Shown here piece by piece: positions 4,840 to 63,596 of a DNA stretch of 64,000 nt. The stretch lies in contig CACEOY010000001.1 of assembly GCA_902561155.1 (NCBI GenBank), forward strand, positions 62,001 to 126,000, read 5' to 3'. The position numbers and the translations under genes are program-made. Under the pieces are notes generated by a model. It saw nothing but the letters and a program-made list of their open reading frames with translations. It did no database searches and was not told where the DNA came from. Within the stretch, counting starts at the first letter, position 1. Each line of letters starts with the position of its first letter. The DNA is from an uncultured Pelagibacteraceae bacterium (lineage in GTDB: Bacteria > Pseudomonadota > Alphaproteobacteria > Pelagibacterales > Pelagibacteraceae).

Positions 4840-5744
4840 TGTTCACTATTTCTGGATTTTACAAGTTTAAAAGGATTAATTTCTTAAAAAAACACAAAAC
4901 TTATCTTGAAAACGAAATATCAAATACCAGTATTAGAGGATCAATTATAATCTCTTCAGAAGGTATTAATGGATCTCTTGCAGGCAATAGCAAAGATATT
5001 TTTAAAATTTTAAAATTACTAAAAAAAAAATTTAAATTCACAGAATTTGATAGTAGCAATATTTCAACTAGTCGTTTTCAACCATTTCACAAAGCAAAAG
5101 TGAAAGTAAAAAAAGAAGTTGTACCACTTGGCTTTAAAATTAAGGGTAAAAGCAAAAGACGTAATAGGTATTTGTCTGGAAATTCTTGGAACAAGTTAAT
5201 TATAAAAAAAGAAACTCTTTTGATTGACGCAAGAAAACCCTTTGAATATAACGTTGGCACTTTTAAGAATGCAATGAATCCAAATATACAAAATTTTCGA
5301 GATTTTCCTAAATTTTTAAATAAAATCGAAAAGACCAAACCTGTTGCGATGTTCTGCACCGGAGGTATTAGATGTGAAAAGGCATCAATTTTTTTAAAAC
5401 AAAAGGGTTTCAAAAACGTTTTTCAGTTAAAAGGTGGAATAATTAATTATCTCAACAAAACTAAAAAAAAAGATAGTTTATGGAAAGGCGAATGTTTTGT
5501 TTTTGATAATAGAGTTTCTTTAAAACATAAATTAAAACAAGGAACTTTTTCAATTTGTGGAGGTTGTCGAAAACCTATATCAACAAAAGATAAGAAATCA
5601 AAAAAATATGAAGAGGGCGTTTCTTGTGAAAGATGTTATGACACACTATCAAGTTTGCAAAAGTCAAGATTTCGAATGAGGCAAAATCAAATTAATCTTG
5701 CCAAAAAAGCGGGAAAGAAGCATAAGTTTCAAAAGGAATATTAA
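4839..5744 (+). CDS. trhO: tRNA uridine-34 5-hydroxylase (rhodanese family)
   Basis: TrhO (formerly YceA) makes 5-hydroxyuridine at the wobble position of certain tRNAs using oxygen. The N-terminal ~100 residues form the acylphosphatase-like fold. Residues about 125-210 are a rhodanese domain with the active-site loop MFCTGGIRCEKAS, where Cys173 is the predicted catalytic cysteine and Cys179 the second conserved one. The C-terminal CGGCRKPIS...CERC pair of CxxC motifs looks like a small zinc site and is usual in this family. Its length, 301 residues, is typical. It shares one base with the O-methyltransferase gene and is 2 bp from the MATE gene. Confidence 0.9.
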   Translation: MFTISGFYKFKRINFLKKHKTYLENEISNTSIRGSIIISSEGINGSLAGNSKDIFKILKLLKKKFKFTEFDSSNISTSRFQPFHKAKVKVKKEVVPLGFKIKGKSKRRNRYLSGNSWNKLIIKKETLLIDARKPFEYNVGTFKNAMNPNIQNFRDFPKFLNKIEKTKPVAMFCTGGIRCEKASIFLKQKGFKNVFQLKGGIINYLNKTKKKDSLWKGECFVFDNRVSLKHKLKQGTFSICGGCRKPISTKDKKSKKYEEGVSCERCYDTLSSLQKSRFRMRQNQINLAKKAGKKHKFQKEY

Positions 5745-5746
5745 AT

Positions 5747-7108
5747 ATGGATTTAACAAAAGGTTCAATTTGGAAACTTTTAAGAAAAGTAACTATACCC
5801 GCTAGCACTGGATCTCTTTTTCAAACTTTTTATAATCTTGTTGATACTTATTTTGCAGGAAGAATTTCTCCAGAAGCACTAGCAGCAATAGCAAAATCTT
5901 GGCCAATTTATTTTATAGCAATAGCTGTAGCTGTTGGTATTGGAGCTGGTACAACAGCTTTAATAAGTAACTCTATTGGGGCTAAAGAGGATAGAAAAGC
6001 TTCTATGTATGTTGCTCAGTCTATAGTACTAGCGATTGTTGTCTCGATTTTTGTAACTTTGTTTGGTTTAAATTTTTCCGATGAACTTTTAAGAATTATG
6101 GGTTCTACTGAAGAAAGTATAATTTTAACGCGTGAATACTTAGATATAATATTTTTTGGTGCAATAATTGTATTAGCTCAGTTATCTTTAAATGGAACTC
6201 TGAATGCGCAAGGTGATACGAAAAGTTATAGAAACGTTTTAATATTCACTTTCTTCTTGAATATATTTCTTAATCCTTTATTTATTTTTGGTTATGGGTT
6301 TATACCAGCATTCGGAATTGCTGGTTTAGCAATAGCTACATTAGTTTCCCAGTGTGTAGGCTTAATATATCTAGCCAACAAAGTTTACTGCTGTAAATTA
6401 AAAAAATACTTGTATCTAGAATGCTTTAAACCAAAGTTTGATTATATCAGTACACTTTTTAAACAATCAGTTCCAATAATGTTTACCATGTTAATGATAA
6501 TGTTTGGAGTATTTAATATTTTCTATTTTGTTGGTCAATTTGGTGAGCTAGCAACAGCAGGTTATGGTACAGCAGTTAGAATAGAACAAGTTTTATTACT
6601 ACCTGTTATAGGTTTAAACACTGCCGTTTTATCAATTGCCGGTCAAAATTACGGAGCAAAAATGCATTTCAGAGTAAAAGAAGTTTATGGAAAAGCATTA
6701 ATGTTTGGTTCCGGGTTTATGGTGTTAGCTGGTATTTTTGTTTATTTAACATCTGAAATTATAATTTCTTTTTTTACAAATGACCTTGAGGTCATTCAAA
6801 GAGGGGCGCTTTACTTACAAGTCGCTGCTCTTATCGGGCCCGTTTATCCTGTATTTTTTATTACTTCTGCTTTATTCCAAGCGCTTAAAAGACCAATTTA
6901 TAGTTTATATATGACGATACTTAGACTTACGTTAATACCATTTATGTCTCTCTGGTATGTAATTAATATAAGAAATGGTGAATACCAAGATATTTTCTAC
7001 ACAATCTTGGTAACAAATTGGATGATGGGTTTAGTCGTTTTAACTTTTGTTCCATTTTTTTTGAAGAGAGTATTTAGAGTTTCTTTTAAAAAGTTATTTG
7101 TATTTTAG
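5747..7108 (+). CDS. MATE-family multidrug/cation efflux transporter
   Basis: A 453-residue integral membrane protein with about 12 hydrophobic segments in two halves. The N-terminus (GSIWKLLRKVTIPASTGSLFQTFYNL) and the NGTLNAQGDTKSYRN / GQNYGAK patterns are those of MATE exporters, which pump cationic drugs or metabolites out in exchange for Na+ or H+. The substrate cannot be told from the sequence. It begins 2 bp after trhO. Its last 15 bases overlap the 3' end of the convergent ABC permease gene. Confidence 0.88.
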   Translation: MDLTKGSIWKLLRKVTIPASTGSLFQTFYNLVDTYFAGRISPEALAAIAKSWPIYFIAIAVAVGIGAGTTALISNSIGAKEDRKASMYVAQSIVLAIVVSIFVTLFGLNFSDELLRIMGSTEESIILTREYLDIIFFGAIIVLAQLSLNGTLNAQGDTKSYRNVLIFTFFLNIFLNPLFIFGYGFIPAFGIAGLAIATLVSQCVGLIYLANKVYCCKLKKYLYLECFKPKFDYISTLFKQSVPIMFTMLMIMFGVFNIFYFVGQFGELATAGYGTAVRIEQVLLLPVIGLNTAVLSIAGQNYGAKMHFRVKEVYGKALMFGSGFMVLAGIFVYLTSEIIISFFTNDLEVIQRGALYLQVAALIGPVYPVFFITSALFQALKRPIYSLYMTILRLTLIPFMSLWYVINIRNGEYQDIFYTILVTNWMMGLVVLTFVPFFLKRVFRVSFKKLFVF

Positions 7109-49517: not shown

Positions 49518-50249
49518 AAAAATAAAATTATTTTCTGTATTATCTTTATTTATCTTATCAATACTTATCAAATTTTCTTTAAAAAAATAATAACAGTCGT
49601 AATTTAAATTTTTGATAAAATTGATTGTTTCTATCACGGGTATTTTTGTATGCCGCTCTTCTATCTCAATAAGCATTACTGGTTTATTTTCTTTAATTAA
49701 ATACTTTCCACCCATCAAAACATTTTTTTCGTGCCCCTCCACATCTATCTTTATAAATCCAATTTTATTTTTTATTGAAATATCGTCTAATTTACGTGTT
49801 TTAATTGGTACTTTTTTATATTCTCTTATAACATTGTCAGGATGCATAGTTGCTGCTCCTAATTGAAATAATTCTTCAATATTTTCTTTAAATAATGATT
49901 TTGATCTGATAGGTAATTTTAATTCAGTTTCTCCATTATTATCTGATAAAGCATAATTATATAATTTTATATTTCTAATAATTTTTTTTAAGTTTTTATT
50001 AAGATAAGGAAATAGTAGGGGATTAGGTTCAAAAGAATGAATATACTTAAAATTTTGAGATAATTTATAAGAATATACTCCTCTATATACTCCAATATCT
50101 AGTGCATCTTTAGATTTATCTGCAAATTTTTCTATTATATTAAGTTCTTTTTCGTATCCTTTGCTAATTGCTCTTTTTAATCTTTTCTTCAATAAGTAAC
50201 TTTCAGAAAAAAAAAGCTTCTTTAATAAAAACTCAACATCTTTAATCAT
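49500..50249 (-). CDS. FkbM-family methyltransferase
   Basis: A 249-residue protein with the FkbM-family pattern: KDALDIGVYRGVYSYKLSQ (SAM site, motif I), YIHSFEPNPLLFPYLNKNL (motif II Glu), and GFIKIDVEGHEKNVLMGG near the C-terminal half. These enzymes O-methylate sugars or lipids, often in polysaccharide clusters. Its ATG overlaps the stop of the upstream integrase gene (ATGA, 50246-50249), so it probably depends on the integrase promoter. It is convergent with the previous methyltransferase. Confidence 0.85.
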   Translation of the reverse strand: MIKDVEFLLKKLFFSESYLLKKRLKRAISKGYEKELNIIEKFADKSKDALDIGVYRGVYSYKLSQNFKYIHSFEPNPLLFPYLNKNLKKIIRNIKLYNYALSDNNGETELKLPIRSKSLFKENIEELFQLGAATMHPDNVIREYKKVPIKTRKLDDISIKNKIGFIKIDVEGHEKNVLMGGKYLIKENKPVMLIEIEERHTKIPVIETINFIKNLNYDCYYFFKENLISIDKINKDNTENNFIFLPKKK

Positions 50250-51199
50250 ATTTTTATTTTATTTAATGCGTTATTTTTAAATATATTTGCTTCCCTTATA
50301 TATCGTCTTACCATTTGTGTTGTTTTATGACCTGTCATTGCCATAATGCTTCTTTCATCTGCTCCTGCTTCAGCTGCTACAGTGGCAAATCCAGACCTTA
50401 AGCTATGACCAGAAAAATTGTTATTTTCTATACCAGCTGACTTTAAACACTCTTTAATTATAAGAACCACTGATTGATCTGTTAATCTGTGTTTTGTTAA
50501 TGAGGACCCTTTTGCAAATCTTCTAAATATTGGCCCACTTTTAATTTTTGATATTTTCAACCAATTTTTTAGATTTATAACAGGACAATAAGTTTCTTTG
50601 GAAAAGTAGGGAAGGCCTTTTAACATTCCTTCTCCAAATTGATCTGTTTTAGACCTCTTGAGAGCGATTTTAACCCCTTCATTAACGAATTCAAGATCCT
50701 CATGGTCAATAGATATTAGCTCGGTTCTTCTAAAACCACCGCCAAAACCGATTAATATCAATGTCTTATTTCTTAGTTTTACAATTTCTTCATTATCTTG
50801 TTTATCTATTACATTAATTATTTCTTTTAAATGACTGATTAATATAGGTTTTTTACCTGTTTGTTTGCTACCTTTAATTCTCTTTATACCCATTAAATTC
50901 TCTATAATTACTGGATGTTTTGTATCTAGATAATGACCTTTAATCTTATGAACAATCCCTATAGACACCAGCCTACGCCTCAAAGTACTGATTTTTGACG
51001 ATTTAGATAAGTGTGTTAAGTATAAGGATACTATTTTTGGATCTGTTGGCATTGATTTAAAACTATGTTTAGCACAAAAACCTGCAAAATCTTTAAAATC
51101 TGATCTGTAAGCTCTCAAGGTATTACTGGCTTTAGAGGTTTTAAGGTTGTTTAATGTTTCCTCATGTAAAGCTTTTATGTCAGTTGTCAGTTCATTCAT
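50246..51199 (-). CDS. Tyrosine recombinase/integrase
   Basis: A 317-residue site-specific recombinase. An N-terminal SAM-like core-binding domain covers about residues 10-100 (NTLRAYRSDFKDFAGFC). The catalytic domain has all key residues: Arg157 (FRRTEL), Lys184 (SKTD), His265 and Arg268 (HSLRSG), His291 (GHKT) and the nucleophile Tyr300 (VRRYIRE). No arm-binding domain is evident, which is more like Xer- or small-island recombinases than phage lambda Int. It is followed by a translationally coupled FkbM gene, and a 35-bp dyad lies just upstream of its ATG. Confidence 0.92.
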   Translation of the reverse strand: MNELTTDIKALHEETLNNLKTSKASNTLRAYRSDFKDFAGFCAKHSFKSMPTDPKIVSLYLTHLSKSSKISTLRRRLVSIGIVHKIKGHYLDTKHPVIIENLMGIKRIKGSKQTGKKPILISHLKEIINVIDKQDNEEIVKLRNKTLILIGFGGGFRRTELISIDHEDLEFVNEGVKIALKRSKTDQFGEGMLKGLPYFSKETYCPVINLKNWLKISKIKSGPIFRRFAKGSSLTKHRLTDQSVVLIIKECLKSAGIENNNFSGHSLRSGFATVAAEAGADERSIMAMTGHKTTQMVRRYIREANIFKNNALNKIKI

Positions 51200-52489: not shown

Positions 52490-53389
52490 TTATTGGAAAA
52501 AACGTAGACTTATATAAACAATAATAGGAACAGAAATAAAAGACATTAAAGTCGAAGTAACTATAACACTTGCTACGTTATCTACTGCCCTCTTTTTTGA
52601 ATACATGGATCCAACTAAATAAGTTAAAACTGCACTTGGCATAGCTGATTGAATAAGTAGTACACCAGCTGCTAAACCATCTAAATTTAGTATTCTTATC
52701 AGAGCATATCCTATAATAGGCCCTATAATCACTCTAACGCCTCCAAGTATAGAAGCATGAGACCAAGAAACAACCTTTAGTCTAGTTAAAGCGATACCCA
52801 AGGACATTAAAACTAAAAATATTGTTGTGTAGGTTAATAAGAAGGTAGTGTTCTCAATATAACCAGGGACTTCCCATTCAAAATATAAAAAAATTACTGA
52901 TAAAATAATTGCATAGATAGGAACATTTTTAATAAGTATATCCAAAGAAAAACTTTTCTTTGCCAACAAAACTCCAATAGTAAAGTGAAATAAAATAATA
53001 ACTGAGGCAATGGCTGAGGCAACACCTAATCCTTCTGTACCATAAGCAAAAAGACATATAGGAATTCCCATGTTTCCCGTATTCGGCAATATCAAAGGGG
53101 GTAATTCAGTAATAGCATCTTTTTTAAGAAATAATAAAAATAACACACCTATAACTGCAAAACCGCAAATAATTATTACAGCATAAATAAAGTATTCAAT
53201 AAAAATATCTAGTGTGACACCTGTTGTGGTAATTGTATAAAAAATCATAGCGGGTGTACCTATGTTACCCGCAAAATTAGTTATAAAAGTAGTATCGAAT
53301 TTTCGATCTTTTTTGCCTAAATAATAACCCACTCCTATTACAAAAAAGACGGGAAATAGAACATCAATTAACTTTAGATAGAGCTCCAT
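52490..53389 (-). CDS. AEC-family (auxin-efflux-carrier-like) transporter
   Basis: A 299-residue membrane protein with about ten segments in two halves. The start (VLFPVFFVIGVGYYLGKK) and the repeated NxGNxGxP-type motif, here LPNTGNMGIPICLFAYG, are typical of the AEC family, which includes malonate and other organic-acid carriers. It is the last gene of the minus-strand run that contains the DMSP genes and shares one base with the SbmA-like gene. Substrate unknown; its position makes an organic-acid or DMSP-related compound worth considering. Confidence 0.85.
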   Translation of the reverse strand: MELYLKLIDVLFPVFFVIGVGYYLGKKDRKFDTTFITNFAGNIGTPAMIFYTITTTGVTLDIFIEYFIYAVIIICGFAVIGVLFLLFLKKDAITELPPLILPNTGNMGIPICLFAYGTEGLGVASAIASVIILFHFTIGVLLAKKSFSLDILIKNVPIYAIILSVIFLYFEWEVPGYIENTTFLLTYTTIFLVLMSLGIALTRLKVVSWSHASILGGVRVIIGPIIGYALIRILNLDGLAAGVLLIQSAMPSAVLTYLVGSMYSKKRAVDNVASVIVTSTLMSFISVPIIVYISLRFFQ

Positions 53390-54393
53390 TAAGCTCTTAC
53401 ATCAGATTTTCGGGGTTTTCTCAACTTATTTCCAAAGTTAATTGCAGACTCAAATTCATTAAGACGTTTATATATAGATCTTAATTCTGTAATTCTTGTC
53501 CAATTTTGCAGAAATAAAGAAAAACTACTTTGAACTTCCCTAAAAGCCGAAGACGTTTGAATTAAAACTCCTAATGTCATTGCGCCAGTAAACAATCCAG
53601 GACCCATTAAAAGATAAGGTACTATTATCATTGTTTGGTTGTACATAATAATCCAAAGATCAAAATAACCATAATGTAAAAATAATCTATGATAATTAAA
53701 TTTTATTCCTGTGAATAATTGAAATATTGTTGGCGCTTGAACATAGTTTTTTCTATCATCTTCACCATAAACAAGTTCTTTTCTGAATGCGGCTTCTACT
53801 TTTTGATTATTATATTCTAGACCAGGAAGCTTTATTCCTACTAACCAACTTATAACTAAACCGCCTAAACTAGCGGTTAAAGAAACCCATACTAGAGATC
53901 CAGTTATATCTTTAAAAAATGGTATTACTACATTTGAAGACAGACCCCATAAAATAGGTATAAAAGCAATTAAAAGCATTATAGCTCTAACAATTTGCAA
54001 GCCTAGACTCTCAACAATTTTAGCAAAATTCATAGCATCTTCCTGTATTCTTTGAGAAGCTCCTTCAACTTTTGCGTCTACAGCTCTCCAATACGGCATA
54101 TAAGAGAATGTCATTGCTTCTCTCCATCTAAAAGCCCAAAGTCTAGTAAAATAATTGGTTATTGTATAAATAATGACGTAGGGAATAGCTAATTTCATAA
54201 ATAAATAAATACCGTCATAAAATTCTGACAATTCACGTTCTGGTGCTTTTTGCAGGAGGTCGTAAAAGCCTTTATACCACTCGTTTATTTTAACATCTAT
54301 ATATGTTTGAGCTAATAAAGATAGAATTATGAAAGCAAATCCACCCCACGACCATAATAACCATTTTTTATCTGTAAAAAAGCTTCGCCACAT
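53389..54393 (-). CDS. SbmA/BacA-like inner-membrane peptide transporter
   Basis: The 334-residue protein resembles SbmA/BacA: KINEWYKGFYDLLQKA near the N-terminus, TRLWAFRWREAMTFSYMPYW, EGASQRIQEDAMNFA, and LEYNNQKVEAAFRKELVYGEDD. Proteins of this group import proline-rich and other peptides and thiazole antibiotics by proton motive force; in rhizobia BacA also affects very-long-chain lipid A. Unlike the related YddA-type ABC proteins, no ATPase domain is fused. It is 2 bp after the NDUFS4-like gene in the same operon-like array. Confidence 0.88.
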   Translation of the reverse strand: MWRSFFTDKKWLLWSWGGFAFIILSLLAQTYIDVKINEWYKGFYDLLQKAPERELSEFYDGIYLFMKLAIPYVIIYTITNYFTRLWAFRWREAMTFSYMPYWRAVDAKVEGASQRIQEDAMNFAKIVESLGLQIVRAIMLLIAFIPILWGLSSNVVIPFFKDITGSLVWVSLTASLGGLVISWLVGIKLPGLEYNNQKVEAAFRKELVYGEDDRKNYVQAPTIFQLFTGIKFNYHRLFLHYGYFDLWIIMYNQTMIIVPYLLMGPGLFTGAMTLGVLIQTSSAFREVQSSFSLFLQNWTRITELRSIYKRLNEFESAINFGNKLRKPRKSDVRA

Positions 54394-54395
54394 AA

Positions 54396-54680
54396 TTAAT
54401 TATTCGTAAAATTTTCTGCATAAGATTTAATTACAAATCTTTTTTTATTTGGTTCAATTACTTTGTAAATAATGTTGTTATTTTTGGCATATTCTATTGC
54501 TTTTTCTTTTGTCGTAAATTCTATTTTTACTTCGCCTAAAGTATCATTTGAAGACTCCCACCCCATTAAAGGATTTGTAGTTGTATCTTTTGTATCAAAC
54601 TCCAATATCCATTTATCTTCTTTACCCAAACCTGATTGGGTTGCCGTTTTTGAAGGTATATAAATTTTTGCTTTTTTCAT
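54396..54680 (-). CDS. NADH dehydrogenase accessory subunit NDUFS4-like (ETC complex I subunit)
   Basis: A 94-residue soluble protein. AKIYIPSKTATQSGLGKEDKWILEF and LMGWESSNDTLGEVKIEFTTKEKAIEYAKNN, given here in two pieces below 20 residues each as AKIYIPSKTATQSG and MGWESSNDT, match the ETC_C1_NDUFS4 domain. In alphaproteobacteria and mitochondria it is an accessory subunit of respiratory complex I. It lies between the dmdA-like and sbmA-like genes with 1-2 bp spacing; why it is here rather than with complex I genes is not evident. Confidence 0.88.
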   Translation of the reverse strand: MKKAKIYIPSKTATQSGLGKEDKWILEFDTKDTTTNPLMGWESSNDTLGEVKIEFTTKEKAIEYAKNNNIIYKVIEPNKKRFVIKSYAENFTNN

Positions 54681-54681
54681 A

Positions 54682-55788
54682 TTAAACTATTGGTAAATCA
54701 CAAATTTCACCATCCACCAATTTATCATTTATATTAATACTAAAATTATTTTTTCCGTTAAAATAGTCTTTTTTTACCATAGCTATACCAATTATTTTTT
54801 TAAATGTTGGAGAAAAAGCTGCAGATCTTAAATCTCCAATTATTTCTTTGTTATTATTAAGCAAGTCTAAATTGTTTAAATTTATTGTATCTGAATTAAT
54901 CTTTACTCCCATTAGTTTTCTTTTGATACCTCTATCCCAAATCTTTTTTAAGCTATTTTTTCCCAAAAATTCAACATCAGAATTTAAATGCACGAGTTTT
55001 TCAAAGCCGCACTCAAAAGGATTATCGCTTATGAGCATGTCGTTTCCATATGACAATAAGCCTCCTTCAATTCTTTCTGCATGATTTGGCGCACCAGGTT
55101 TAATATTATATTTTTTTCCAACTTCAAAAAGATGATCATATAAATCTAATCCAGCTTTTAGGTTATCTACATGGATTTCATAACCACCTTGTTTTGAAAA
55201 TCCAGATCTTGAGATAAGGAATTTCTTATTTTGAAAATTATAAAAACTATATTTAAAAAATTTTAATTTTGTAATTTCATTTCCAAATACATCTTCCATT
55301 AATTTGAATGATTTTGGACCCTGTACAGCCATGGTATCAATATTTGCTTCAAAAATATTAACATTGAGATTTTTTCCAGCTGCTATCCCTTTTGCGTATA
55401 ACAACACATCCGAGTCAGCTATACACACTCTCCAAATATTATCCTCCAATTTATAAATTAATGGATCATTAACCATGCCTCCATTAGAGTCTATTAAGGG
55501 AACATAATAACAGTTACCTACTTTTGTTTTAGAGAGATCCCGACATGTCATTAATTGAACAAGTTGATGCGCATGTTTACCTGAAATTTCAATTTCTCTT
55601 TGAACTGAAACATCCCAAACTTGAACGTCTTTCTTTAAATGCAAGTATTCTTCATTTATGTTAGAAAAGGTAGTTGGTAGCAACATATGATTGTATACCG
55701 TGTAACTTTTAACACCTTGCTCTTCTATTTTTTTTGTAAAAGGTGTAGACCTTACTCTTCGTGATTTACTAATGTAAAAATTCTTCAT
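54682..55788 (-). CDS. dmdA: DMSP demethylase-like protein (DmdA/GcvT family)
   Basis: DmdA transfers one methyl group of dimethylsulfoniopropionate to tetrahydrofolate, leaving 3-methylmercaptopropionate. The 368-residue protein is of the GcvT fold and has the DmdA-specific N-terminus RRVRSTPFTKKIEEQGVKS with YNHMLLPT, and LVQLMTCRDLSKTKVGNCYY. It lines up without gaps through residue 210 with the Pelagibacter ubique DmdA as I remember it. Two residues differ there: position 197 is Phe (Trp in P. ubique) and 206 is His (Tyr). These lie near the substrate and folate sites, so a variant substrate preference or another DmdA clade is possible. It overlaps the hydrolase gene by 4 bp. Confidence 0.82.
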   Translation of the reverse strand: MKNFYISKSRRVRSTPFTKKIEEQGVKSYTVYNHMLLPTTFSNINEEYLHLKKDVQVWDVSVQREIEISGKHAHQLVQLMTCRDLSKTKVGNCYYVPLIDSNGGMVNDPLIYKLEDNIWRVCIADSDVLLYAKGIAAGKNLNVNIFEANIDTMAVQGPKSFKLMEDVFGNEITKLKFFKYSFYNFQNKKFLISRSGFSKQGGYEIHVDNLKAGLDLYDHLFEVGKKYNIKPGAPNHAERIEGGLLSYGNDMLISDNPFECGFEKLVHLNSDVEFLGKNSLKKIWDRGIKRKLMGVKINSDTINLNNLDLLNNNKEIIGDLRSAAFSPTFKKIIGIAMVKKDYFNGKNNFSININDKLVDGEICDLPIV

Positions 55789-56561
55789 TTGTTTAAAAAT
55801 TCTAAAATTTTTTCTCTCATCTCAAAAGCATTTTCTAAAATTATCATATGACCACAATTTTTAATTACGTGAACTTTAGACTTGTTAATCATTTTTGCAA
55901 ACTTTTCTCCTGATTCTAGTCTAACCATCTTATCAAGATCCCCAAAAATAAAAAACGTTGGACACGTTATACTTTTTACCGCATCAACACCATTTTTGTA
56001 ATTATTACAAGCAATTAAATCTACAGCCAGAACCTCTCTTACTTCTCTAGAAGAATTAAGTATTTTTTGTAATGGATTGCCTCCAATAAATTGTTTTGAG
56101 GATCCATATCCCCATTTCATCATTAAATTTAGAGCCTCCATATCACCAGATAATGCTAGATCAATTAAACTTTTGTTAACAGGTATAGAATAGGACCCTG
56201 CAATAAAAACTATTTTTTCAACTTTTTTTGAGAAGTTTTTTGCAAATTCAAGGGCCTCTAAACATCCTTGAGAGTGAGCAACCAATATAGATTTTTCTAT
56301 ACCAAAATAATCAACAAAATCATTTATCCAATTTGATATTTCTTCTATTGATTTTAAACAAGGTCCTTCAGAATTACCATGTCCTGGAAGATCTAAGGTA
56401 AATACATTAAAACCTTTGTCAGCTAAAAATTGATCAGTTAAAGACCAAACAACATGAGATTGGCCACTACCATGTAACAGAATGATAGTCGGTTTTTTTT
56501 TATCAAAAGGATGCCCAACATCATTTGAAAATATTTTTTTCTCTTTAATTTCCGTAATCAA
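55785..56561 (-). CDS. Alpha/beta-fold hydrolase
   Basis: A 258-residue alpha/beta hydrolase. The oxyanion HG motif is in IILLHGSGQSHVVWSL, the nucleophile elbow is VAHSQGC with Ser97, the acid is in FIFGDLDKMVRL, and the catalytic His is in KNCGHMIILENA. No signal peptide, so cytosolic. Lying between a dmdA-like and a crotonase gene suggests hydrolysis of an ester or thioester in the same pathway, for example a CoA intermediate, but this is speculation. It overlaps the dmdA-like gene by 4 bp. Confidence 0.82.
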   Translation of the reverse strand: MITEIKEKKIFSNDVGHPFDKKKPTIILLHGSGQSHVVWSLTDQFLADKGFNVFTLDLPGHGNSEGPCLKSIEEISNWINDFVDYFGIEKSILVAHSQGCLEALEFAKNFSKKVEKIVFIAGSYSIPVNKSLIDLALSGDMEALNLMMKWGYGSSKQFIGGNPLQKILNSSREVREVLAVDLIACNNYKNGVDAVKSITCPTFFIFGDLDKMVRLESGEKFAKMINKSKVHVIKNCGHMIILENAFEMREKILEFLNK

Positions 56562-56582
56562 TTCAAAACCCTTTATTAAAAA

Positions 56583-57392
56583 TTATTTATCTTTCCATTT
56601 AGGTTCTCTTTTATCAATAAAAGCATCGATACCCTCTTTTGCATCTAGTTTAAGCATATTTTGAACCATCACCTTTGATGCATAATCATAAGCATCGGAA
56701 AGTTTCATATCTAATTGCTTATAAAAAGCTTCTTTACCAATTTTTAAAGTTACTGAGGATTTTTTTGAAATTTTTGAAGCTTTATTCAATACAAAATCTT
56801 TGAGTTTATTTATTTCAATAACATCATTAATTAAACCAATTTTAGCGGCTTTATCTGAAGAAATTAATTCTCCAGTTAAAAGCATCTCCATAGAATGTTT
56901 GTTGGATAAGTTTCTCGAAATAGCAACCATTGGTGTAGAACAAAATAAACCTATGTTTACTCCTGGTGTTGCGAATTTAGCTAAACTACTTGCGTATGCT
57001 AAATCACAACTTGCAACTAATTGACATCCTGCGGCAGTAGCCGTTCCTTCAATTTCTGCAATTATTGGTTTTGGACATTTAATAATTGTTTGCATCATCT
57101 TTGAGCATTTTTTCATTATCTTTAAAAAATATTTTTTTCCTTTATCTGCAGCTTTTCTTGCAGCTTTCAATTCTTTTAAATCATGTCCAGATGAAAATGT
57201 TGACCCCTCCCCTGAAATTATTATTACTCTTACATTTTTATTTAAACTTGCCTTGTTTAAAGCTTTTTGTATTAAATCCATCATATTTTCAGAAAGAGCA
57301 TTTAAATTTTCTGGACTATTTAAGTTAAAACGCATTACTCCATTTTCGTTTAAATAAGTTTCTAAAACTTTGCTATTTTTTCTATAATTCAT
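56583..57392 (-). CDS. Enoyl-CoA hydratase/isomerase family protein lacking both usual catalytic Glu
   Basis: A 269-residue crotonase-fold protein. The oxyanion hole region SSGHDLKEL and the fold motif EIEGTATAAGCQLVASCDLAYA are present. However, at the positions of the two catalytic glutamates of rat enoyl-CoA hydratase, this protein has Gln124 and Gly144 (FATPGVNIGLF). The pattern recalls ECHDC3-like proteins, which also lack the usual pair. It is unlikely to be an ordinary hydratase, and it is not a good match for DmdD, where both Glu are needed. A CoA hydrolase or isomerase role is possible. It is 3 bp from the OsmC gene. Confidence 0.82.
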   Translation of the reverse strand: MNYRKNSKVLETYLNENGVMRFNLNSPENLNALSENMMDLIQKALNKASLNKNVRVIIISGEGSTFSSGHDLKELKAARKAADKGKKYFLKIMKKCSKMMQTIIKCPKPIIAEIEGTATAAGCQLVASCDLAYASSLAKFATPGVNIGLFCSTPMVAISRNLSNKHSMEMLLTGELISSDKAAKIGLINDVIEINKLKDFVLNKASKISKKSSVTLKIGKEAFYKQLDMKLSDAYDYASKVMVQNMLKLDAKEGIDAFIDKREPKWKDK

Positions 57393-57395
57393 AGG

Positions 57396-57845
57396 TTAAT
57401 TAATCTTTACCTTTACTTCATCTGACAAAGAGTTGGCTATAAAGCAATATCGATGAGCCCTCTCTTGTACCTCTTTTATTTTGTTTTCGTCTACAGAAAA
57501 TTCTTTTGAAAATGCTATCTTTGGATTTAATTCAATATTGGTTACTAACATTTTGCCTCTGGAATTTTTTCCTAAAGTAGCTATTGCGTTGTCTGTATAC
57601 CCTGAAACTGGCCAATTCATTTTGGCAGCAAGAGCTAAAAAAGTCATCATATGACAACTGCTTAATGCTGCTGCAAGGGCTTGTTCAGGATTACTATTTT
57701 GTTTGTTTCCGTTCCAATCTGGGGCTGCGTCACCATTTATAACAATCTCATCATTAAATTCAATTTGATGTTTGTTTGAATATTTACCAGGTGATAATTC
57801 TCCTCCATTAAGACTCCATTTGAGATTAATTGATATTTTTGCCAT
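57396..57845 (-). CDS. OsmC/Ohr-family thiol peroxidase-like protein
   Basis: A 149-residue protein of the OsmC family, which reduces organic hydroperoxides through two cysteines. Cys64 in ALSSCHMM and Cys134 in AHRYCFIAN are the conserved pair. The family N-terminus (KISINLKWSLNGGELSPGKY, then NPEQALAAALSSC) is clear. Its presence among methylated-sulfur and acyl-CoA genes could protect against peroxides or handle reactive thiols such as methanethiol released by the pathway; this is inference from position. Confidence 0.88.
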   Translation of the reverse strand: MAKISINLKWSLNGGELSPGKYSNKHQIEFNDEIVINGDAAPDWNGNKQNSNPEQALAAALSSCHMMTFLALAAKMNWPVSGYTDNAIATLGKNSRGKMLVTNIELNPKIAFSKEFSVDENKIKEVQERAHRYCFIANSLSDEVKVKIN

Positions 57846-57858
57846 TATTATAATTAAA

Positions 57859-59487
57859 TTAGTTAAACTCTTTAGCTTTTTTTCTTAACTCGAATTTTTG
57901 TATTTTTCCTGTAGATGTTTTTGGTAGATCGCAAAATTCCACTTTTTTTGGAACTTTAAATCCTGCTAAAGTTTCTTTGCAAAAAGAGATTAGTTCATTT
58001 TCTGTGACCGGTTTGTCCTTTACCATTTCTATGAAAGCACAGGGTACCTCTCCCCACTTTTCATCAGGTTTCGCAACAACAGCAGCAATAGATACTGATG
58101 GATGTTTTGCTAAAGTATTTTCAATTTCTATAGACGAAATATTTTCACCTCCAGAAATAATTATATCTTTTGATCTATCTTGAATTTTTACATAACCATC
58201 AGGATGCATTACTGCTAAATCTCCAGTGTGGAACCAACCGCCCTTCATAGCTTTATCAGTTGCATTTTTATCCTTGAAATATCCTTTCATAACAATATTA
58301 CCTTTGATCATTATCTCACCAATAGTTTTACCATCTTTAGGTACCTCTTTCATGGTTTCAGGATCCATTATAGCTACACCTTCAGTGTTTGGATATCGAA
58401 CTCCTTGCCTAGCTTTAATTTCATTTTGTTTCTCCTCATTAAGTTCATTCCAAGACTCATTCCAAGCACATTGTGTTACGTGACCGTATGTTTCTGTTAA
58501 TCCATATACGTGCATAACTTCGAAACCTAGACTTTTCATTTTTTTAAAAATAATACTAGGGGGTGGCGCACCGGCAGTTAAAACATAAACTTTTTGTTTT
58601 AATTTTTTCCTATCTTTTTCAGGAGCACCCGTTATCATATTTAAAACTATAGGAGCACCTCCAAAATGTGTAACATTGTATTTATCTATTAACTCAAAAA
58701 TTTTTTTAACGTCAATATTTCTCAAACAAATTGTTCGACCTATTAACATTGGTACAGTCCATGGATAACCCCATCCATTACAATGAAACATAGGAACAAT
58801 AGTTAGAAAATTTAACCTATTAGGCATGTTCCATGCAGTAGCACTACCAGTAGACATTAAGTAAGAACCTCTATGATGATATACAACTCCTTTTGGATTT
58901 CCTGTTGTGCCAGAAGTATAACTTAATGAAAGAGCCTGCCATTCATCATCGGGCATTTTCCATTGAAAATTCTCATCACCAGTTTTTAAAAATTCTTCAT
59001 ATTCTCTATCACCGATCTTTTCACACTTTGACTGATCTGCATGCTTATCGTTAATATCAATAATGGTAATTTTTCTTTTTATAGTGCTTAAAGCTTTTTT
59101 TACTTCTACATGAAGCTGGCGGTCTACAACTAATACTTTTGCCTCTCCATGTTCCAAAATATATGAAATTGTTTTTGCATCTAAACGAATATTAATTGTA
59201 TTTAGCACTGCTCCAGTCATGGGCACAGAATAATGTGCTTCGAAGATTTCGGGTGTATTAAAAGCTAAAAAAGAAACAGTGTCCCCTTTTTTAATACCAA
59301 TCTTTGAAAGCGCACTGGCGAATTTTACACATCTTTTATAAACCTCTGACCATGTGTAATTTCTATCTTCATAAATTACTGCTTCATAATTTGGGTAGAT
59401 TTCTTTTGCTCTAACTAAGAAAGTAAGTGGTGTTAATGGAACGAAATTAGCTTTATTTTTCTCTAAATTTTTTTCGTATACACTCAT
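57859..59487 (-). CDS. dmdB: Acyl-CoA synthetase, probable 3-methylmercaptopropionyl-CoA ligase (DmdB)
   Basis: DmdB activates 3-methylmercaptopropionate with ATP and CoA. The 542-residue ANL-family protein has the P-loop SYTSGTTGNPKGVVYHHRGS, TIVPMFHCNGWGYPW, VYGLTETYGHVT, GWFHTGDLAVMHPDGYVKI, and the catalytic lysine near residue 528 in PKTSTGKIQK. Short- to medium-chain acyl-CoA synthetases share these motifs, so identity as DmdB rests on the neighbouring dmdC-like and dmdA-like genes. The DmdB of Ruegeria and Pelagibacter that I recall are of similar length. It is 2 bp from the dehydrogenase gene. Confidence 0.8.
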   Translation of the reverse strand: MSVYEKNLEKNKANFVPLTPLTFLVRAKEIYPNYEAVIYEDRNYTWSEVYKRCVKFASALSKIGIKKGDTVSFLAFNTPEIFEAHYSVPMTGAVLNTINIRLDAKTISYILEHGEAKVLVVDRQLHVEVKKALSTIKRKITIIDINDKHADQSKCEKIGDREYEEFLKTGDENFQWKMPDDEWQALSLSYTSGTTGNPKGVVYHHRGSYLMSTGSATAWNMPNRLNFLTIVPMFHCNGWGYPWTVPMLIGRTICLRNIDVKKIFELIDKYNVTHFGGAPIVLNMITGAPEKDRKKLKQKVYVLTAGAPPPSIIFKKMKSLGFEVMHVYGLTETYGHVTQCAWNESWNELNEEKQNEIKARQGVRYPNTEGVAIMDPETMKEVPKDGKTIGEIMIKGNIVMKGYFKDKNATDKAMKGGWFHTGDLAVMHPDGYVKIQDRSKDIIISGGENISSIEIENTLAKHPSVSIAAVVAKPDEKWGEVPCAFIEMVKDKPVTENELISFCKETLAGFKVPKKVEFCDLPKTSTGKIQKFELRKKAKEFN

Positions 59488-59489
59488 TT

Positions 59490-61250
59490 TCAGTTAAATT
59501 TAGCTTTCATCAAGCTTTCACTGCCAGCTATTGCTGAGTGATAATGACTGTCTATCCTTGGTAAAATTTTATCAAAAAAGTATTTTGCAGTATTTATTTT
59601 TTCCTCATAAAATTCTTTATTTTTATTTGAGTTTTCATAGCTCACTTTAGTCATTTTGAGCCATGAATATCCTAAAGCTACATAACCAAGAACTTTTAAA
59701 AAGTCATTGCATGCCGCGCTGACATCATCTTTTTGATTTTTTAATTTAATATCTAACCAATTTGAAAAATCTAATAAAATTTTTATTTTTTCTTCAAGAA
59801 TATTTGAAAGTCTTTTTAATTCATCATTATTCTTATAATTTTTAATCTCATTTTGAACTAGGGACGTAAATTTTTCTAATGTTCTATTAGTTAGTACTTT
59901 TCTAAATACAAGATCAATTGCTTGCACAGAATTTGTACCCTCATAAATTGGTGTTATTCTATTATCTCTATAGAGTTGTTCGATACCTTGATCTCTTGTA
60001 TAGCCATAACCACCAAAAACTTGAATAGCTTCATTTGTTATTTCCATTCCCATATCTGAAAAAAAAGATTTTACTACAGGTGTCATGAGAGATACCATTT
60101 CATCAGCTTCTTTTCTGATATTTTCATTTGAGTGATTTAAACTTACATCAACTTGTTGAGATAACCAAAAAGCAAGTGATCTTTGGCCTTCAATTATTGA
60201 CTTCATATTCATCAGACTTCTTCTTATATCAGCGTGTTTAAGTATTAAGTCTGTTTCACCATTTTTATTATCGTTTGATTTACCTTGTTTTCTCTCTCTC
60301 GTGTAAGCTAATGAATTTTGATATGCTGTTTCTGAAATACCTAATCCTTGTATTCCAACTATAATTCTTTCTAAATTCATCATTGTAAACATTGAGCTTA
60401 ATCCTTTATTTTCTTTACCAATTAAAAAGCCCTTAGCATTATCGAAGTTAAGAACACAAGTTGGTGAACCTTTGATTCCCATTTTGGTTTCAATAGATAA
60501 AGTGCTAACACCATTTCTAGACCCCACCGAACCATTTTCATTTACATTAAATTTTGGAACTAAAAAAAGACTAATTCCTTTAGTTCCTTCAGGCCCACCT
60601 GGTATTTTTGCTAAAACTAAATGTATGATATTTTCTGTTAAGTCGTGATCACCAGATGTAATAAATATTTTTTGTCCAGTTAAAGAAAATGATCCATCTG
60701 AATTTTTTATTGCTTTTGTTTTTATTAAGCCTAAATCAGTTCCACATTGAGACTCGGTCAAACACATAGTCCCACTCCATTTTCCCTCTACTATTTTTGG
60801 TAAAAACTTGTCTTTAATCTTATCATCTGCGTGATGAAGAATACAATTATAAGCTCCAATACTTAGTTCGCTATATAATTTAAATGATAAACTTGCTGAG
60901 GATAACATTTCTTCAAAAAAAGTACTAACAGTCTTTGGCATTCCTTGACCACCATATTTTGGATCACAAGATAAAGATGTCCATCCATCTGTAATGAATT
61001 TTTTATAAGCTTCTTTATAACCTGGTGGAGATCTTACTATTCCATTTTCATACACACATGGACTGTCATCACCTATTTTAGCTAAGGGATGAACAATTTC
61101 TTGATTTATTTTTGCTGCTTGATCTAAAACATCTTTGACTAAGTCAGAACTTATTTCTTTAAATTTATCAATCTCTTTATAATTTTTATTATCTTTAAGA
61201 TTATCAAAAAGAAACATCATATCTTCAACTGGAGCATTATATGTAGTCAT
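59490..61250 (-). CDS. dmdC: Acyl-CoA dehydrogenase, probable 3-methylmercaptopropionyl-CoA dehydrogenase (DmdC)
   Basis: DmdC oxidises MMPA-CoA to methylthioacryloyl-CoA. This 586-residue flavoprotein is of the long DmdC/ACAD type: CDPKYGGQGMPKTVSTFFEE, MCLTESQCGTDLGLIKT, KIFITSGDHDLTENIIHLVL, and the catalytic-base motif IYEGTNSVQAIDLVFRK in the C-terminal half, followed by about 150 more residues found in this subfamily. The N-terminal YNAPVEDMMFLFDNL is also characteristic. It abuts the downstream dmdB-like gene by 2 bp and starts 1 bp after the fused gene's stop. Confidence 0.85.
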   Translation of the reverse strand: MTTYNAPVEDMMFLFDNLKDNKNYKEIDKFKEISSDLVKDVLDQAAKINQEIVHPLAKIGDDSPCVYENGIVRSPPGYKEAYKKFITDGWTSLSCDPKYGGQGMPKTVSTFFEEMLSSASLSFKLYSELSIGAYNCILHHADDKIKDKFLPKIVEGKWSGTMCLTESQCGTDLGLIKTKAIKNSDGSFSLTGQKIFITSGDHDLTENIIHLVLAKIPGGPEGTKGISLFLVPKFNVNENGSVGSRNGVSTLSIETKMGIKGSPTCVLNFDNAKGFLIGKENKGLSSMFTMMNLERIIVGIQGLGISETAYQNSLAYTRERKQGKSNDNKNGETDLILKHADIRRSLMNMKSIIEGQRSLAFWLSQQVDVSLNHSNENIRKEADEMVSLMTPVVKSFFSDMGMEITNEAIQVFGGYGYTRDQGIEQLYRDNRITPIYEGTNSVQAIDLVFRKVLTNRTLEKFTSLVQNEIKNYKNNDELKRLSNILEEKIKILLDFSNWLDIKLKNQKDDVSAACNDFLKVLGYVALGYSWLKMTKVSYENSNKNKEFYEEKINTAKYFFDKILPRIDSHYHSAIAGSESLMKAKFN

Positions 61251-63473
61251 TTAATTAATTAATGGTTTTCCTGTTTTTAATGTATGAACAATCCTATCTT
61301 GAGTTTTTTTATTTTCTACTAATTTCATAAAGCTGTTTAGTTCCAATTTATACATTTGATCTTCTGTTACCTCTTTATTTAAATCTGTATCACCGCCACT
61401 TAAAACATATGCTAATTCTTTACCAACTTCCATACCGTGATCTAGAATCTTATTATCATTATATAATGCTTCAAGTATTTTGTGCATTTTTTCTCTAGCA
61501 TTTTTACCCGATAATTTAAATTTACATTCTTTAGATGGAGACATATCTACGTTATTATTGAGTAATTTTCTTGCCGCAGGCAGTAGTTCATTTCTATTAA
61601 TTATAACATCATGATTTTTATCCAAAAATAACATAGGTTTAGCCTCTTGAGGAGAAGATGCAGTTTTAGCATAACCAATTATATCAAAAACTTTTAATGG
61701 TGCATAATCTGGATCTGTTTTAGACTCATTGGTTTGACACCATCTCCAAAGTAGTTCTTTACAACCACCTCCAGCAGGCACTAAACCAACAATTGTTTCA
61801 ACTAAACCCATTACTATATTAGTATGCGTAACTACATAATTACTTTGTAATACAACTTCTTCTCCACCTCCTAGGGCTAAACCAGACGGAGCAGATATAA
61901 CTGGGTATTTACAATATTTAAGATGCTTGCAAGTTTCTTGAAAATACTTAATAAATTTTTCAACAGACTTCATATCGTTATTCTTTATAAATTTCATTAC
62001 ATAATTTAGATTTACACCTGCAGAAAATTGCATACTTTCGTTTATTATAATTAGAGGTTTATCTGTAGCCTTTTTCAAAGCATCCATTGAATCATTATCT
62101 AAAGCATTTGCTTTAGTGTTAAACTCAACAATATTAAAATCTTTAAATCTAAATATTTCTGCTGAGTCATTTTTATCTAATTTAATGACTGTTTTTTTAA
62201 TCTTTCCTAATGTTTGTAAGTTAGTATATTTTTGTCGCTCGTCATAAAAACTTTCTGCTTTTTTTTCTTTTAAATCTTTTAAAAATTCATTGTGATTAAT
62301 ATCTCCAATTTTTGAAAAGAAATTTTTCAATCCTATAGACTCTAACATTTCAAACGGGCCCATAGACCAATTAAAACCTAGTCTCAAAGCTTCATCTATG
62401 TCATTATATTCATCAGTTATAGCTGGCACCAGTGAAGATGAGTACAAGATTATTTTTGAAATTACTGACCATGCATATTTACCATACTTATCATTTCTGT
62501 TAATTAATTCTAAAAGGTTTATCTTATCTATTTTTAAATCTATCTTTTTAACTGGAAAGTATTCATTTTTATTTAAATTAAGAGCTTCAAGAGTCTTTTT
62601 ATTCTCAGACTTATTCATCCTATAAAACCCTCCCTTACCTTTTCTACCCGTATAACCAGTTTCAATTAATTTTTTGATAATCGGTAAACCAGAAACAACT
62701 TTTTGAAAATCATCTTCTTTGGGTAATTCTTTTTGAAAACTTTTGAGAACATCTGACATTAAATCAATACCTATCAAGTCATATAAAGCAAAAACTCCTG
62801 TTTTAGGTATACCCATAGGTCTACCAAATACAGCATCAGCTTCTTCAATAGAAAGATCCATATCAACCGCTTCTGTCATCGCTACTTGCATAGCATATAC
62901 TCCTATTCTGTTTCCTAAAAAACCAGGAGTGTCACCACAAACAATTACACCTTTACCTAATTTTTCTTCACTAAAATCTTTTAAATAATTAATTTTATTT
63001 TGGTCGTTCAGCTTATCTCTAACTATTTCTAGTAATCCCATATATCTAACTGGATTGAAAAAGTGTGTAATACAAAAATCTTTTTTGTCTTCTGCTTTTA
63101 ATTTTTTTGATAATACTTTTAAAGGAATAGTTGATGTATTTGACGAAACAATTGAGTCTTTTTTTCTTTTATCAAATATTTTTTTATAAATATTATGTTT
63201 GATATCAATTCTTTCAACAACTGCCTCTACAATCCAGTCTGCATCAGAAACATTTTCAAAATCATCGATAATATTGCCAACCTTCAAATTTTTAATTTTA
63301 TCTTTTTCAAATAATAACGGCGGTCTAGATTTTAGAATTCTTTCTTTAGCTTTTTCAGAAATTTCAGTTTTTAAATCTAATAATATGACTGGTATATTAG
63401 CATTGCATAAATGAGCAGCTATTCCACTCCCCATTGTTCCAGATCCTATTACAACTACTTTTTTAATATTCAT
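61251..63473 (-). CDS. 3-Hydroxyacyl-CoA dehydrogenase/enoyl-CoA hydratase fusion (inverted FadB order)
   Basis: A 740-residue bifunctional protein. Residues 1-300 are the NAD-binding 3-hydroxyacyl-CoA dehydrogenase part (VVVIGSGTMGSGIAAHLCN, SSNTSTIPLKVL, ITHFFNPVRYMGLLEIV), then the C-terminal HAD domains; from about residue 455 an enoyl-CoA hydratase domain with GLALGGGEEVVLQSNY and VMGLVETIVGLVPAGGG that keeps both catalytic Glu. This order (dehydrogenase first) is the reverse of E. coli FadB. ATG 63473 is chosen because the longer ORF runs through tRNA-Pro. It is the first gene of the array, 7 bp after that tRNA. It could supply the hydratase step for methylthioacryloyl-CoA, or act in general beta-oxidation. 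Confidence 0.9.
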   Translation of the reverse strand: MNIKKVVVIGSGTMGSGIAAHLCNANIPVILLDLKTEISEKAKERILKSRPPLLFEKDKIKNLKVGNIIDDFENVSDADWIVEAVVERIDIKHNIYKKIFDKRKKDSIVSSNTSTIPLKVLSKKLKAEDKKDFCITHFFNPVRYMGLLEIVRDKLNDQNKINYLKDFSEEKLGKGVIVCGDTPGFLGNRIGVYAMQVAMTEAVDMDLSIEEADAVFGRPMGIPKTGVFALYDLIGIDLMSDVLKSFQKELPKEDDFQKVVSGLPIIKKLIETGYTGRKGKGGFYRMNKSENKKTLEALNLNKNEYFPVKKIDLKIDKINLLELINRNDKYGKYAWSVISKIILYSSSLVPAITDEYNDIDEALRLGFNWSMGPFEMLESIGLKNFFSKIGDINHNEFLKDLKEKKAESFYDERQKYTNLQTLGKIKKTVIKLDKNDSAEIFRFKDFNIVEFNTKANALDNDSMDALKKATDKPLIIINESMQFSAGVNLNYVMKFIKNNDMKSVEKFIKYFQETCKHLKYCKYPVISAPSGLALGGGEEVVLQSNYVVTHTNIVMGLVETIVGLVPAGGGCKELLWRWCQTNESKTDPDYAPLKVFDIIGYAKTASSPQEAKPMLFLDKNHDVIINRNELLPAARKLLNNNVDMSPSKECKFKLSGKNAREKMHKILEALYNDNKILDHGMEVGKELAYVLSGGDTDLNKEVTEDQMYKLELNSFMKLVENKKTQDRIVHTLKTGKPLIN

Positions 63474-63480
63474 ATGATTT

Positions 63481-63557
<77 letters not shown>

Positions 63558-63567
63558 AAAGTCTATT

Positions 63568-63596
63568 TATATAGGTTATATATGACTTTTTGGCAA
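63568..63596 (-). promoter_or_regulatory. Sigma70-type promoter of tRNA-Pro, probably also of the DMSP-type operon
   Basis: On the minus strand TTGCCA (63596..63591) and TATATA (63573..63568) are exactly 17 bp apart. The predicted start is near 63561, about 4 nt before the tRNA. No other promoter-sized gap exists before the fused gene, so the same transcript may carry the tRNA and the operon. Confidence 0.65.

Follow-up and report, generated by a model that had tools for sequence, protein, structure and literature searches.

What is the ten-gene array on the minus strand at 52490-63473 of this 64,000-nucleotide stretch of an uncultured Pelagibacteraceae genome (hereafter the window): one unit devoted to dimethylsulphoniopropionate (DMSP), or neighbouring units of different history? 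DMSP demethylation by SAR11 bacteria directs algal sulphur into methionine and not into the gas dimethyl sulphide. A preliminary description of the window had listed ten closely packed genes, and the window's open reading frame (ORF) list confirmed ten successive minus-strand ORFs whose gaps, from 5' to 3', are 0, 2, 13, 3, 21, -4, 1, 2 and -1 bp; its family calls (DmdA-, DmdB- and DmdC-like proteins, OsmC, crotonase, alpha/beta hydrolase, NDUFS4, SbmA/BacA, AEC and a hydroxyacyl-CoA fusion) also stood in Pfam and NCBIfam searches. Its interpretation of the array as a single unit fared less well. We consider it very probable that the array consists of two units, namely a seven-gene DMSP cassette, FadB-DmdC-DmdB-OsmC-crotonase-hydrolase-DmdA, and an older NDUFS4-SbmA-AEC backbone. 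The genome is a 967-kb assembly, 83% complete, and the window DmdA is 98-99% identical to those of the uncultured Pelagibacteraceae AG-422-L15 and AG-461-J19.

The main evidence comes from occupied and empty sites in the same genus. At the level of the order, DmdA scored over its cut-off in 200 of 297 genomes. In the window's genus (g1 among the genera coded g1-g12), a DmdA match of at least 290 bits was found in 34 of 121 genomes, split across contigs in two of them, and SbmA was found in 88, including all 34 that bear DmdA. Among the 54 genomes that have SbmA but lack such a DmdA match, 28 were examined, chosen mostly for contig room; after duplicate loci of the same genome had been merged, 47 distinct dmdA-bearing loci and 28 dmdA-lacking loci were counted. 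None of the 28 showed a match to any of the seven cassette genes in the locus stretch examined, and all 28 retained NhaA, tRNA-Pro, NDUFS4, SbmA and AEC. The left border of the cassette is a tRNA-Pro gene (UGG, CCA encoded; 63481-63557, minus strand; ARAGORN and Rfam RF00005), which was absent from the preliminary description, and the right border is the NDUFS4-like complex I subunit gene (54396-54680, minus strand; PF04800, 110.8 bits). In 27 of the 28 dmdA-lacking loci, NDUFS4 starts 2-9 nucleotides after the CCA of tRNA-Pro, and the junction is alike in four further dmdA-lacking genomes that were examined at NDUFS4 only (G034, G127, G151 and G180). The sole exception, L137, carries a gene for 380 amino acids without a Pfam match (5411-6553) between tRNA-Pro and NDUFS4, which indicates that the junction accepts other inserts. 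Conversely, fadB begins at the first ATG, 3-7 nucleotides after the CCA, in all 32 distinct dmdA-bearing loci with an intact tRNA-Pro; the other 15 are mostly contigs that start inside or shortly before the cassette. In the window, the listed ORF of the FadB-like fusion begins at a TTG at 63524, within the tRNA, and the ATG at 63473, 7 nucleotides past the CCA, is the likely start.

The DMSP-demethylation and methylmercaptopropionyl-coenzyme A (MMPA-CoA) genes thus form a physically linked unit together with the accessory OsmC, atypical crotonase and hydrolase genes. This part of the preliminary description was supported, as these genes are missing from the site in the dmdA-lacking loci examined. 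All ten genes of the array were matched in 34 of the 47 distinct dmdA-bearing loci, with a partial FadB in some. OsmC and the crotonase are both missing from three loci (L188, L190 and L193), and OsmC alone from L064; nine more are shorter, of which eight are cut at contig ends and one, L191, is truly without the remaining genes. Based on the loci without OsmC and crotonase, we distinguish a core of FadB, DmdC, DmdB, hydrolase and DmdA from the two accessory genes. In L188 and L190, both of genus g6, a gene for a Gfo/Idh/MocA-type oxidoreductase (family scanned for L190) lies between the hydrolase and DmdA genes. The DmdA match also falls in two frames at L188:14240-15335 and at L053:10001-11097, with the neighbours intact in the match list, and these two genes look broken, by decay or by sequencing error.

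We also examined how the genes at this site may be expressed. A TTGCCA-N17-TATAwA promoter motif precedes tRNA-Pro in all 28 dmdA-lacking loci and in 24 of the 32 distinct dmdA-bearing loci in which tRNA-Pro is intact; it is missing from L037 (by a single base), L054, L193 and the five g6 loci, which carry other sequences. The predicted promoter of the window lies at 63568-63596 on the minus strand (TTGCCA at 63596-63591, a 17-nucleotide spacer and TATATA at 63573-63568), directly upstream of tRNA-Pro. Given that the motif is common to occupied and empty sites, it belongs to the backbone. A consensus promoter scan found 75 sites against 68.1 expected, which is near chance, and omitted this promoter because the last T of the second hexamer is missing. 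Between 51000 and 64000, no terminator-like site was detected on the minus strand. The leader of 2-9 nucleotides after the CCA is too short to hold a Shine-Dalgarno site. The cassette here probably lacks a separate promoter, so that a single conserved promoter would drive tRNA-Pro and whichever gene follows the CCA. The tRNA would be cut from this joint transcript, and the first gene would then be translated from a near-leaderless mRNA.

Next, we consider the enzymes of the cassette. DmdA (54682-55788, minus strand, as are all genes of the array) scored 495.9 bits against the 410-bit cut-off of NCBIfam NF009133 and aligned end to end with structure 3tfh (494 bits, residues 1-368 to 1-369), which we take to be the DmdA of P. 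ubique. The DmdC-like acyl-CoA dehydrogenase (59490-61250; PF12806) matched structure 6ijc, presumably a DmdC, over its full length (516.7 bits, residues 1-581). The SAR11-type DmdB-like acyl-CoA ligase (57859-59487) exceeded the cut-off of NF006020/PRK08162 (862 against 677 bits). The first cassette gene, fadB (61251-63473; PF02737/PF00725/PF00378), encodes a fusion of an N-terminal 3-hydroxyacyl-CoA dehydrogenase and a C-terminal crotonase that reached 527 bits against NF052272, below the cut-off of 999. The OsmC/Ohr-type peroxidase (57396-57845; PF02566) keeps its cysteine motifs SSCH and YCF in 50 of 50 copies, and the mhpC-like alpha/beta hydrolase (55785-56561, TTG start; PF00561, 103 bits) keeps its HSQG motif in 86 of 86. 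The ECHDC3-type crotonase (56583-57392) exceeded the cut-off of NF006008/PRK08139 (376 against 313 bits), with 3myb and 2vx2 as best structures. Both hydratase glutamates, whose positions we assumed from rat ECH, are missing from it: the first site reads AAGCQL in 50 of 50 copies and the second FATPGVN in 49 of 50. The crotonase domain of FadB has the first glutamate in 44 of 47 copies (three were unmatched by the pattern) and the second in 47 of 47.

This difference bears on a step for which SAR11 has no assigned enzyme. In the part of PMC5069961 consulted, DmdD orthologues are described as absent from SAR11 and alternate enzymes are hypothesised. Given that FadB keeps both hydratase glutamates and the crotonase of the array lacks them, we propose FadB together with the hydrolase as a candidate replacement for DmdD. 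In such a scheme, DmdA would demethylate DMSP to methylmercaptopropionate (MMPA), DmdB would convert this to MMPA-CoA, and DmdC would oxidise MMPA-CoA to methylthioacryloyl-CoA; the crotonase domain of FadB would then hydrate methylthioacryloyl-CoA, setting methanethiol free, and the hydrolase would cut the remaining CoA thioester. Judging from the residues and gene linkage, we hold the chance that FadB and the hydrolase have this role in SAR11 to be close to even. The distribution of FadB is consistent with the scheme. In g1, FadB was found in nine of 10 dmdA-bearing genomes, the tenth (G286) being cut by a contig end, and in none of 20 without dmdA (Fisher p 7e-7, relatedness ignored). For DmdA, FadB and OpuAC only the matches listed were counted, and weaker or partial ones may be missing; the absence of FadB from G158, for example, means that it was not among the matched rows. 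FadB and dmdA are both absent from nine sampled genomes of g2, g4 and g5 (no match better than 2e-5), and FadB adjoins DmdC in g1, in g6 and in two Pelagibacter-type loci, L102 and L110.

How else could the array be explained? According to the preliminary description, all ten genes would work together to take up and demethylate DMSP and to degrade MMPA-CoA, NDUFS4 and the two transporters being functional parts of the unit. The genes do share one strand, their gaps range from -4 to 21 bp and no minus-strand terminator-like site was found in the region, and eight of the 13 loci in which fewer than ten genes were matched are cut at contig ends. However, such spacing is the norm in the window: of 45 pairs of same-strand neighbours elsewhere in it, 36 are spaced by 21 bp or less, and there is a second ten-gene run of this kind (counted with a crude ORF caller using ATG starts and at least 80 amino acids), so that close packing by itself does not argue for a functional unit. 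Moreover, NDUFS4, SbmA and AEC stay in place in all 28 dmdA-lacking loci, tRNA-Pro is followed by NDUFS4-SbmA in all 15 loci from g3, g7 and g12 that rank among the 30 best of the NDUFS4 search, and no match to NDUFS4, SbmA, AEC, OsmC or the ECHDC3-type crotonase was found near dmdA in the stretches, of differing length, examined at 47 Pelagibacter-type loci. In two loci, L055 and L058, an inversion directly behind DmdA has turned round the block NDUFS4-SbmA-AEC-Ogt-cupin-Int, which means that this block shares no transcript with dmdA there. The comparison of gene order around dmdA that the preliminary description had proposed therefore divides its array: the seven-gene unit varies with dmdA, and the order NDUFS4-SbmA-AEC is conserved without it, so that the claim of membership fails for these three genes. 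The idea of self-contained uptake fails with it, as no transporter of the array varies with dmdA. We rejected the ten-gene functional unit, which we judge very unlikely; the result speaks against functional coupling, whereas mere co-transcription of the ten genes would be compatible with it. A generic fatty-acid beta-oxidation operon that adjoins dmdA by chance might also be considered, given that FadB, acyl-CoA dehydrogenase, acyl-CoA ligase and crotonase are all beta-oxidation families. Yet these genes are missing from the site when dmdA is missing, whereas thiolase occurs as a single copy whether dmdA is there or not (18 of 19 genomes). In addition, the 47 Pelagibacter-type loci have DmdB listed near dmdA in 44 cases, DmdC in 41 and the hydrolase in 32, and the neighbouring ligase in those 44 is 77-92% identical to that of the window. 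This explanation was rejected as well and seems to us quite unlikely.

The position of the cassette also recalls a classical genomic island integrated at the 3' end of tRNA-Pro and mobilised by a tyrosine recombinase. A gene of the Phage_integrase family lies at 50246-51199, about 1.3 kb past AEC, and is found at 58-93% identity in other loci, including most of the occupied ones. The left border at a tRNA 3' end, the closeness of this gene and a tRNA-Pro remnant in L056, which hints at possible use of the tRNA by a different element, would fit such an origin. In the window, however, the tRNA end is not directly repeated at the right border, the longest string shared by the two cassette ends being 8 nucleotides, and we rejected an att-flanked island on this ground. 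The integrase-type gene is kept in 27 of the 28 empty loci (it was not found in the examined stretch of L137), and so does not travel with the cassette. An integrase-borne island thus appears most improbable. Carriage by phage was rejected too, since one scan of viral contigs yielded no relative of the window DmdA. A more serious competitor holds that the empty site is ancestral in the genus and that homologous recombination brought the cassette in on several occasions. The interior of the cassette forms a mosaic across clades: along a tract that starts within DmdC and reaches into DmdA, the window shares 90-97% identity with L053 and 86-94% with L133, against 66-83% and 64-84%, respectively, outside this tract. 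The empty order also occurs in three other genera. On the other side stands a quick IQ-TREE phylogeny of rpoB with 52 full-length sequences (rpoB was matched in 60 of 75 genomes, 55 of them over the cut-off), which requires two changes of cassette state. All of the 16 empty genomes but G340 fall into a single clade (SH-aLRT 99), and all six genomes of the g6 outgroup bear dmdA, five with the cassette at the tRNA-Pro/NDUFS4 site and one, G090, with DmdA alone. Counted by hand, the tree needs two losses against four gains. Two losses are the best reading of this tree, and we regard repeated gains as rather unlikely. The cassette was probably gained before g1 and the neighbouring g6 split and would then have been lost at least twice, with inner parts exchanged between lineages through homologous recombination; that both losses would have restored the junction precisely suggests recombination with an empty allele.

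Nevertheless, several observations weigh against this account of a cassette that comes and goes as a whole at one tRNA. Three dmdA-bearing loci that include fadB and the sequence upstream of it break the tRNA pattern, two of them (L057 and L059) having unrelated sequence in that place and L056 a tRNA-Pro remnant. L067 is ambiguous, and L191 has DmdA behind other genes, without FadB, DmdC and DmdB. The absence of DmdC, DmdB, OsmC, crotonase and hydrolase from dmdA-lacking genomes applies to the locus stretches; DmdA was searched for genome-wide, as was FadB on a partly different set of genomes. The DmdB-like ligase falls below the cut-off of the MMPA-CoA ligase family PRK07008 (348.6 against 822 bits). 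With regard to FadB, dmdA occurs without a FadB match in G022 (g3, 99% complete), G086 (g3, 95%) and G090 (g6, 95%), and FadB occurs without an over-cut-off dmdA in at least seven g3 genomes of 87-92% completeness (G132, G133, G149, G159, G207, G214 and G246); in family f2, DmdA-like genes below the cut-off are accompanied by no full FadB. Co-transcription and tRNA processing are predictions from sequence, and the empty sites could belong to lineages that never held the cassette, with repeated gains elsewhere. In L056, the remnant beside fadB (about 1080-1105) comprises roughly the last 23 nucleotides of tRNA-Pro, and upstream of it lies an ORF for 294 amino acids without a Pfam family, as if another element had integrated into tRNA-Pro.

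The backbone has a wider distribution than the cassette. NDUFS4 gave one match each in 100 of 118 genomes of the family and in 45 of 45 with a completeness of at least 90%, which marks it as a housekeeping gene. Outside the family, NDUFS4 was hit in 102 of 142 alphaproteobacterial genomes; among the best 30 loci (L251-L280), tRNA-Pro lies within about 125 nucleotides upstream of the NDUFS4 match in 17, and tRNA-Arg lies behind in 16 of these. The order tRNA-Pro/NDUFS4/tRNA-Arg is thus widespread in other Alphaproteobacteria. The SbmA/BacA-family transporter (53389-54393; PF05992) falls below the cut-off of PRK11098, the SbmA peptide-antibiotic transporter (317 against 492 bits), and exceeds that of the 'putative transporter' PRK12369 (NF009036; 504 against 385 bits); in the two g3 loci among the 15 with tRNA-Pro before NDUFS4-SbmA, SbmA is just 40-44% identical. 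The auxin-efflux-carrier type (AEC) transporter lies at 52490-53389 (PF03547, Mem_trans/AEC, 64.4 bits). At L048:11410-12344, two genes stand between NDUFS4 and SbmA, one of which encodes a Rieske-domain protein of 105 amino acids. OpuAC-type binding proteins, which we take to be the family of known betaine/DMSP importers, are located elsewhere in the genome and, among the matches listed, are present also in dmdA-lacking genomes.

Another gene outside the window follows dmdA. A second DmdA-like aminomethyltransferase (G000:C1:175266-176132; 33% identical) was found in at least 24 of the 34 dmdA-bearing g1 genomes and at least six of the 87 without a dmdA match, including just one (G340) of the 28 examined dmdA-lacking genomes (Fisher p 4e-8, relatedness ignored; among the matches listed). 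Its designation as SAR11_1265-like rests on the consulted part of PMC3160333 and on its resemblance to DmdA. Two OpuAC genes in tandem are located some 7 kb from it. This pattern is in line with a joint loss of methyl-group metabolism with dmdA. The available portion of PMC10030771 reports a loss of dmdA together with C1 genes for SAR11 IIIa/LD12; the dmdA-lacking g1 genomes resemble that case, except that the contrast here falls within a single genus and the empty site has been located. The methylenetetrahydrofolate reductase family was matched in two of the 121 g1 genomes, weakly.

The same genes also have a second address in the family. In four of the five Pelagibacter-type loci whose ORFs were examined (L097, L070, L102 and L110, the exception being L106), the cluster is flanked by leuB (isopropylmalate dehydrogenase) and by asd (semialdehyde dehydrogenase), which sdh genes follow; these family names are Pfam-confirmed for L097 and assigned by eye for the others, and L110 has one extra ORF. 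In the window genome, the best leuB match is just 28% identical, in an assembly that is 83% complete. In L102 (AG-414-E02) and L110 the order is FadB-DmdC-x-DmdB-hydrolase-DmdA, where x in L102 (6689-7585) encodes a methylenetetrahydrofolate reductase (PF02219, 123.5 bits), through which the methyl group that tetrahydrofolate receives from DmdA is likely to pass. For HTCC1062 of SAR11 subgroup Ia, the figure legend of PMC3160333, which we used in part, includes dmdA, mhpC, fadD and mmgC among the regions drawn, and like the window that region combines DmdA with an alpha/beta hydrolase, a fadD-type ligase and an acyl-CoA dehydrogenase. We observed the order of that legend in L097 (HTCC9565), and the four proteins are about 54-92% identical between the window and Pelagibacter-type loci, fragments aside. 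L097 and L070 differ from the window in their leuB and asd-sdh flanks and in having no OsmC, crotonase or FadB alongside, whereas the cluster of the window lies between tRNA-Pro and NDUFS4 with FadB first. Compared with the DmdABCD/AcuH pathway of Roseobacter, as set out in the excerpted text of PMC5395565, the window shares the DmdA, DmdB and DmdC functions and the expected release of methanethiol. Unlike that pathway, it has no glutamate-bearing DmdD-type crotonase, its ligase belongs to a subfamily other than PRK07008, and FadB with the hydrolase is the candidate in place of DmdD/AcuH. Presence/absence polymorphism at conserved sites, with tRNA genes flanking one hypervariable region, is also described for SAR11 in the accessible part of PMC2217521; here, by contrast, a complete pathway forms the indel, placed gene-precisely behind a tRNA, and DMSP is not mentioned in that portion of the text.

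The DMSP pathway itself is known, whereas its plug-in architecture and the link to FadB look new: among the titles and abstract openings listed, we found none on the tRNA-Pro/NDUFS4 insertion site or on a role of FadB in SAR11 DMSP use, which is weak evidence given that papers were partly available as excerpts and subscription literature was sparsely covered. The joint proposal, that the whole pathway is an interchangeable cassette which homologous recombination inserts and removes between tRNA-Pro and NDUFS4, that its constitutive expression starts from a tRNA precursor whose 3' processing yields a near-leaderless mRNA, and that the FadB fusion with the hydrolase is the DmdD of SAR11, may hold as a whole, although we regard this as tentative and its failure in some part as the likelier outcome. 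The link between FadB and the hydrolase would supply named candidates for the methanethiol-releasing step in SAR11, where DmdD is lacking (PMC5069961, as far as consulted). The bacterium of the window is related to the most abundant bacteria in the ocean, and many of its own close relatives hold the same site without the cassette. If the pathway is indeed a single removable block, its presence could be scored in ocean metagenomes from tRNA-Pro/fadB versus tRNA-Pro/NDUFS4 junctions, and the gain or loss of the cassette could be compared with the supply of DMSP.

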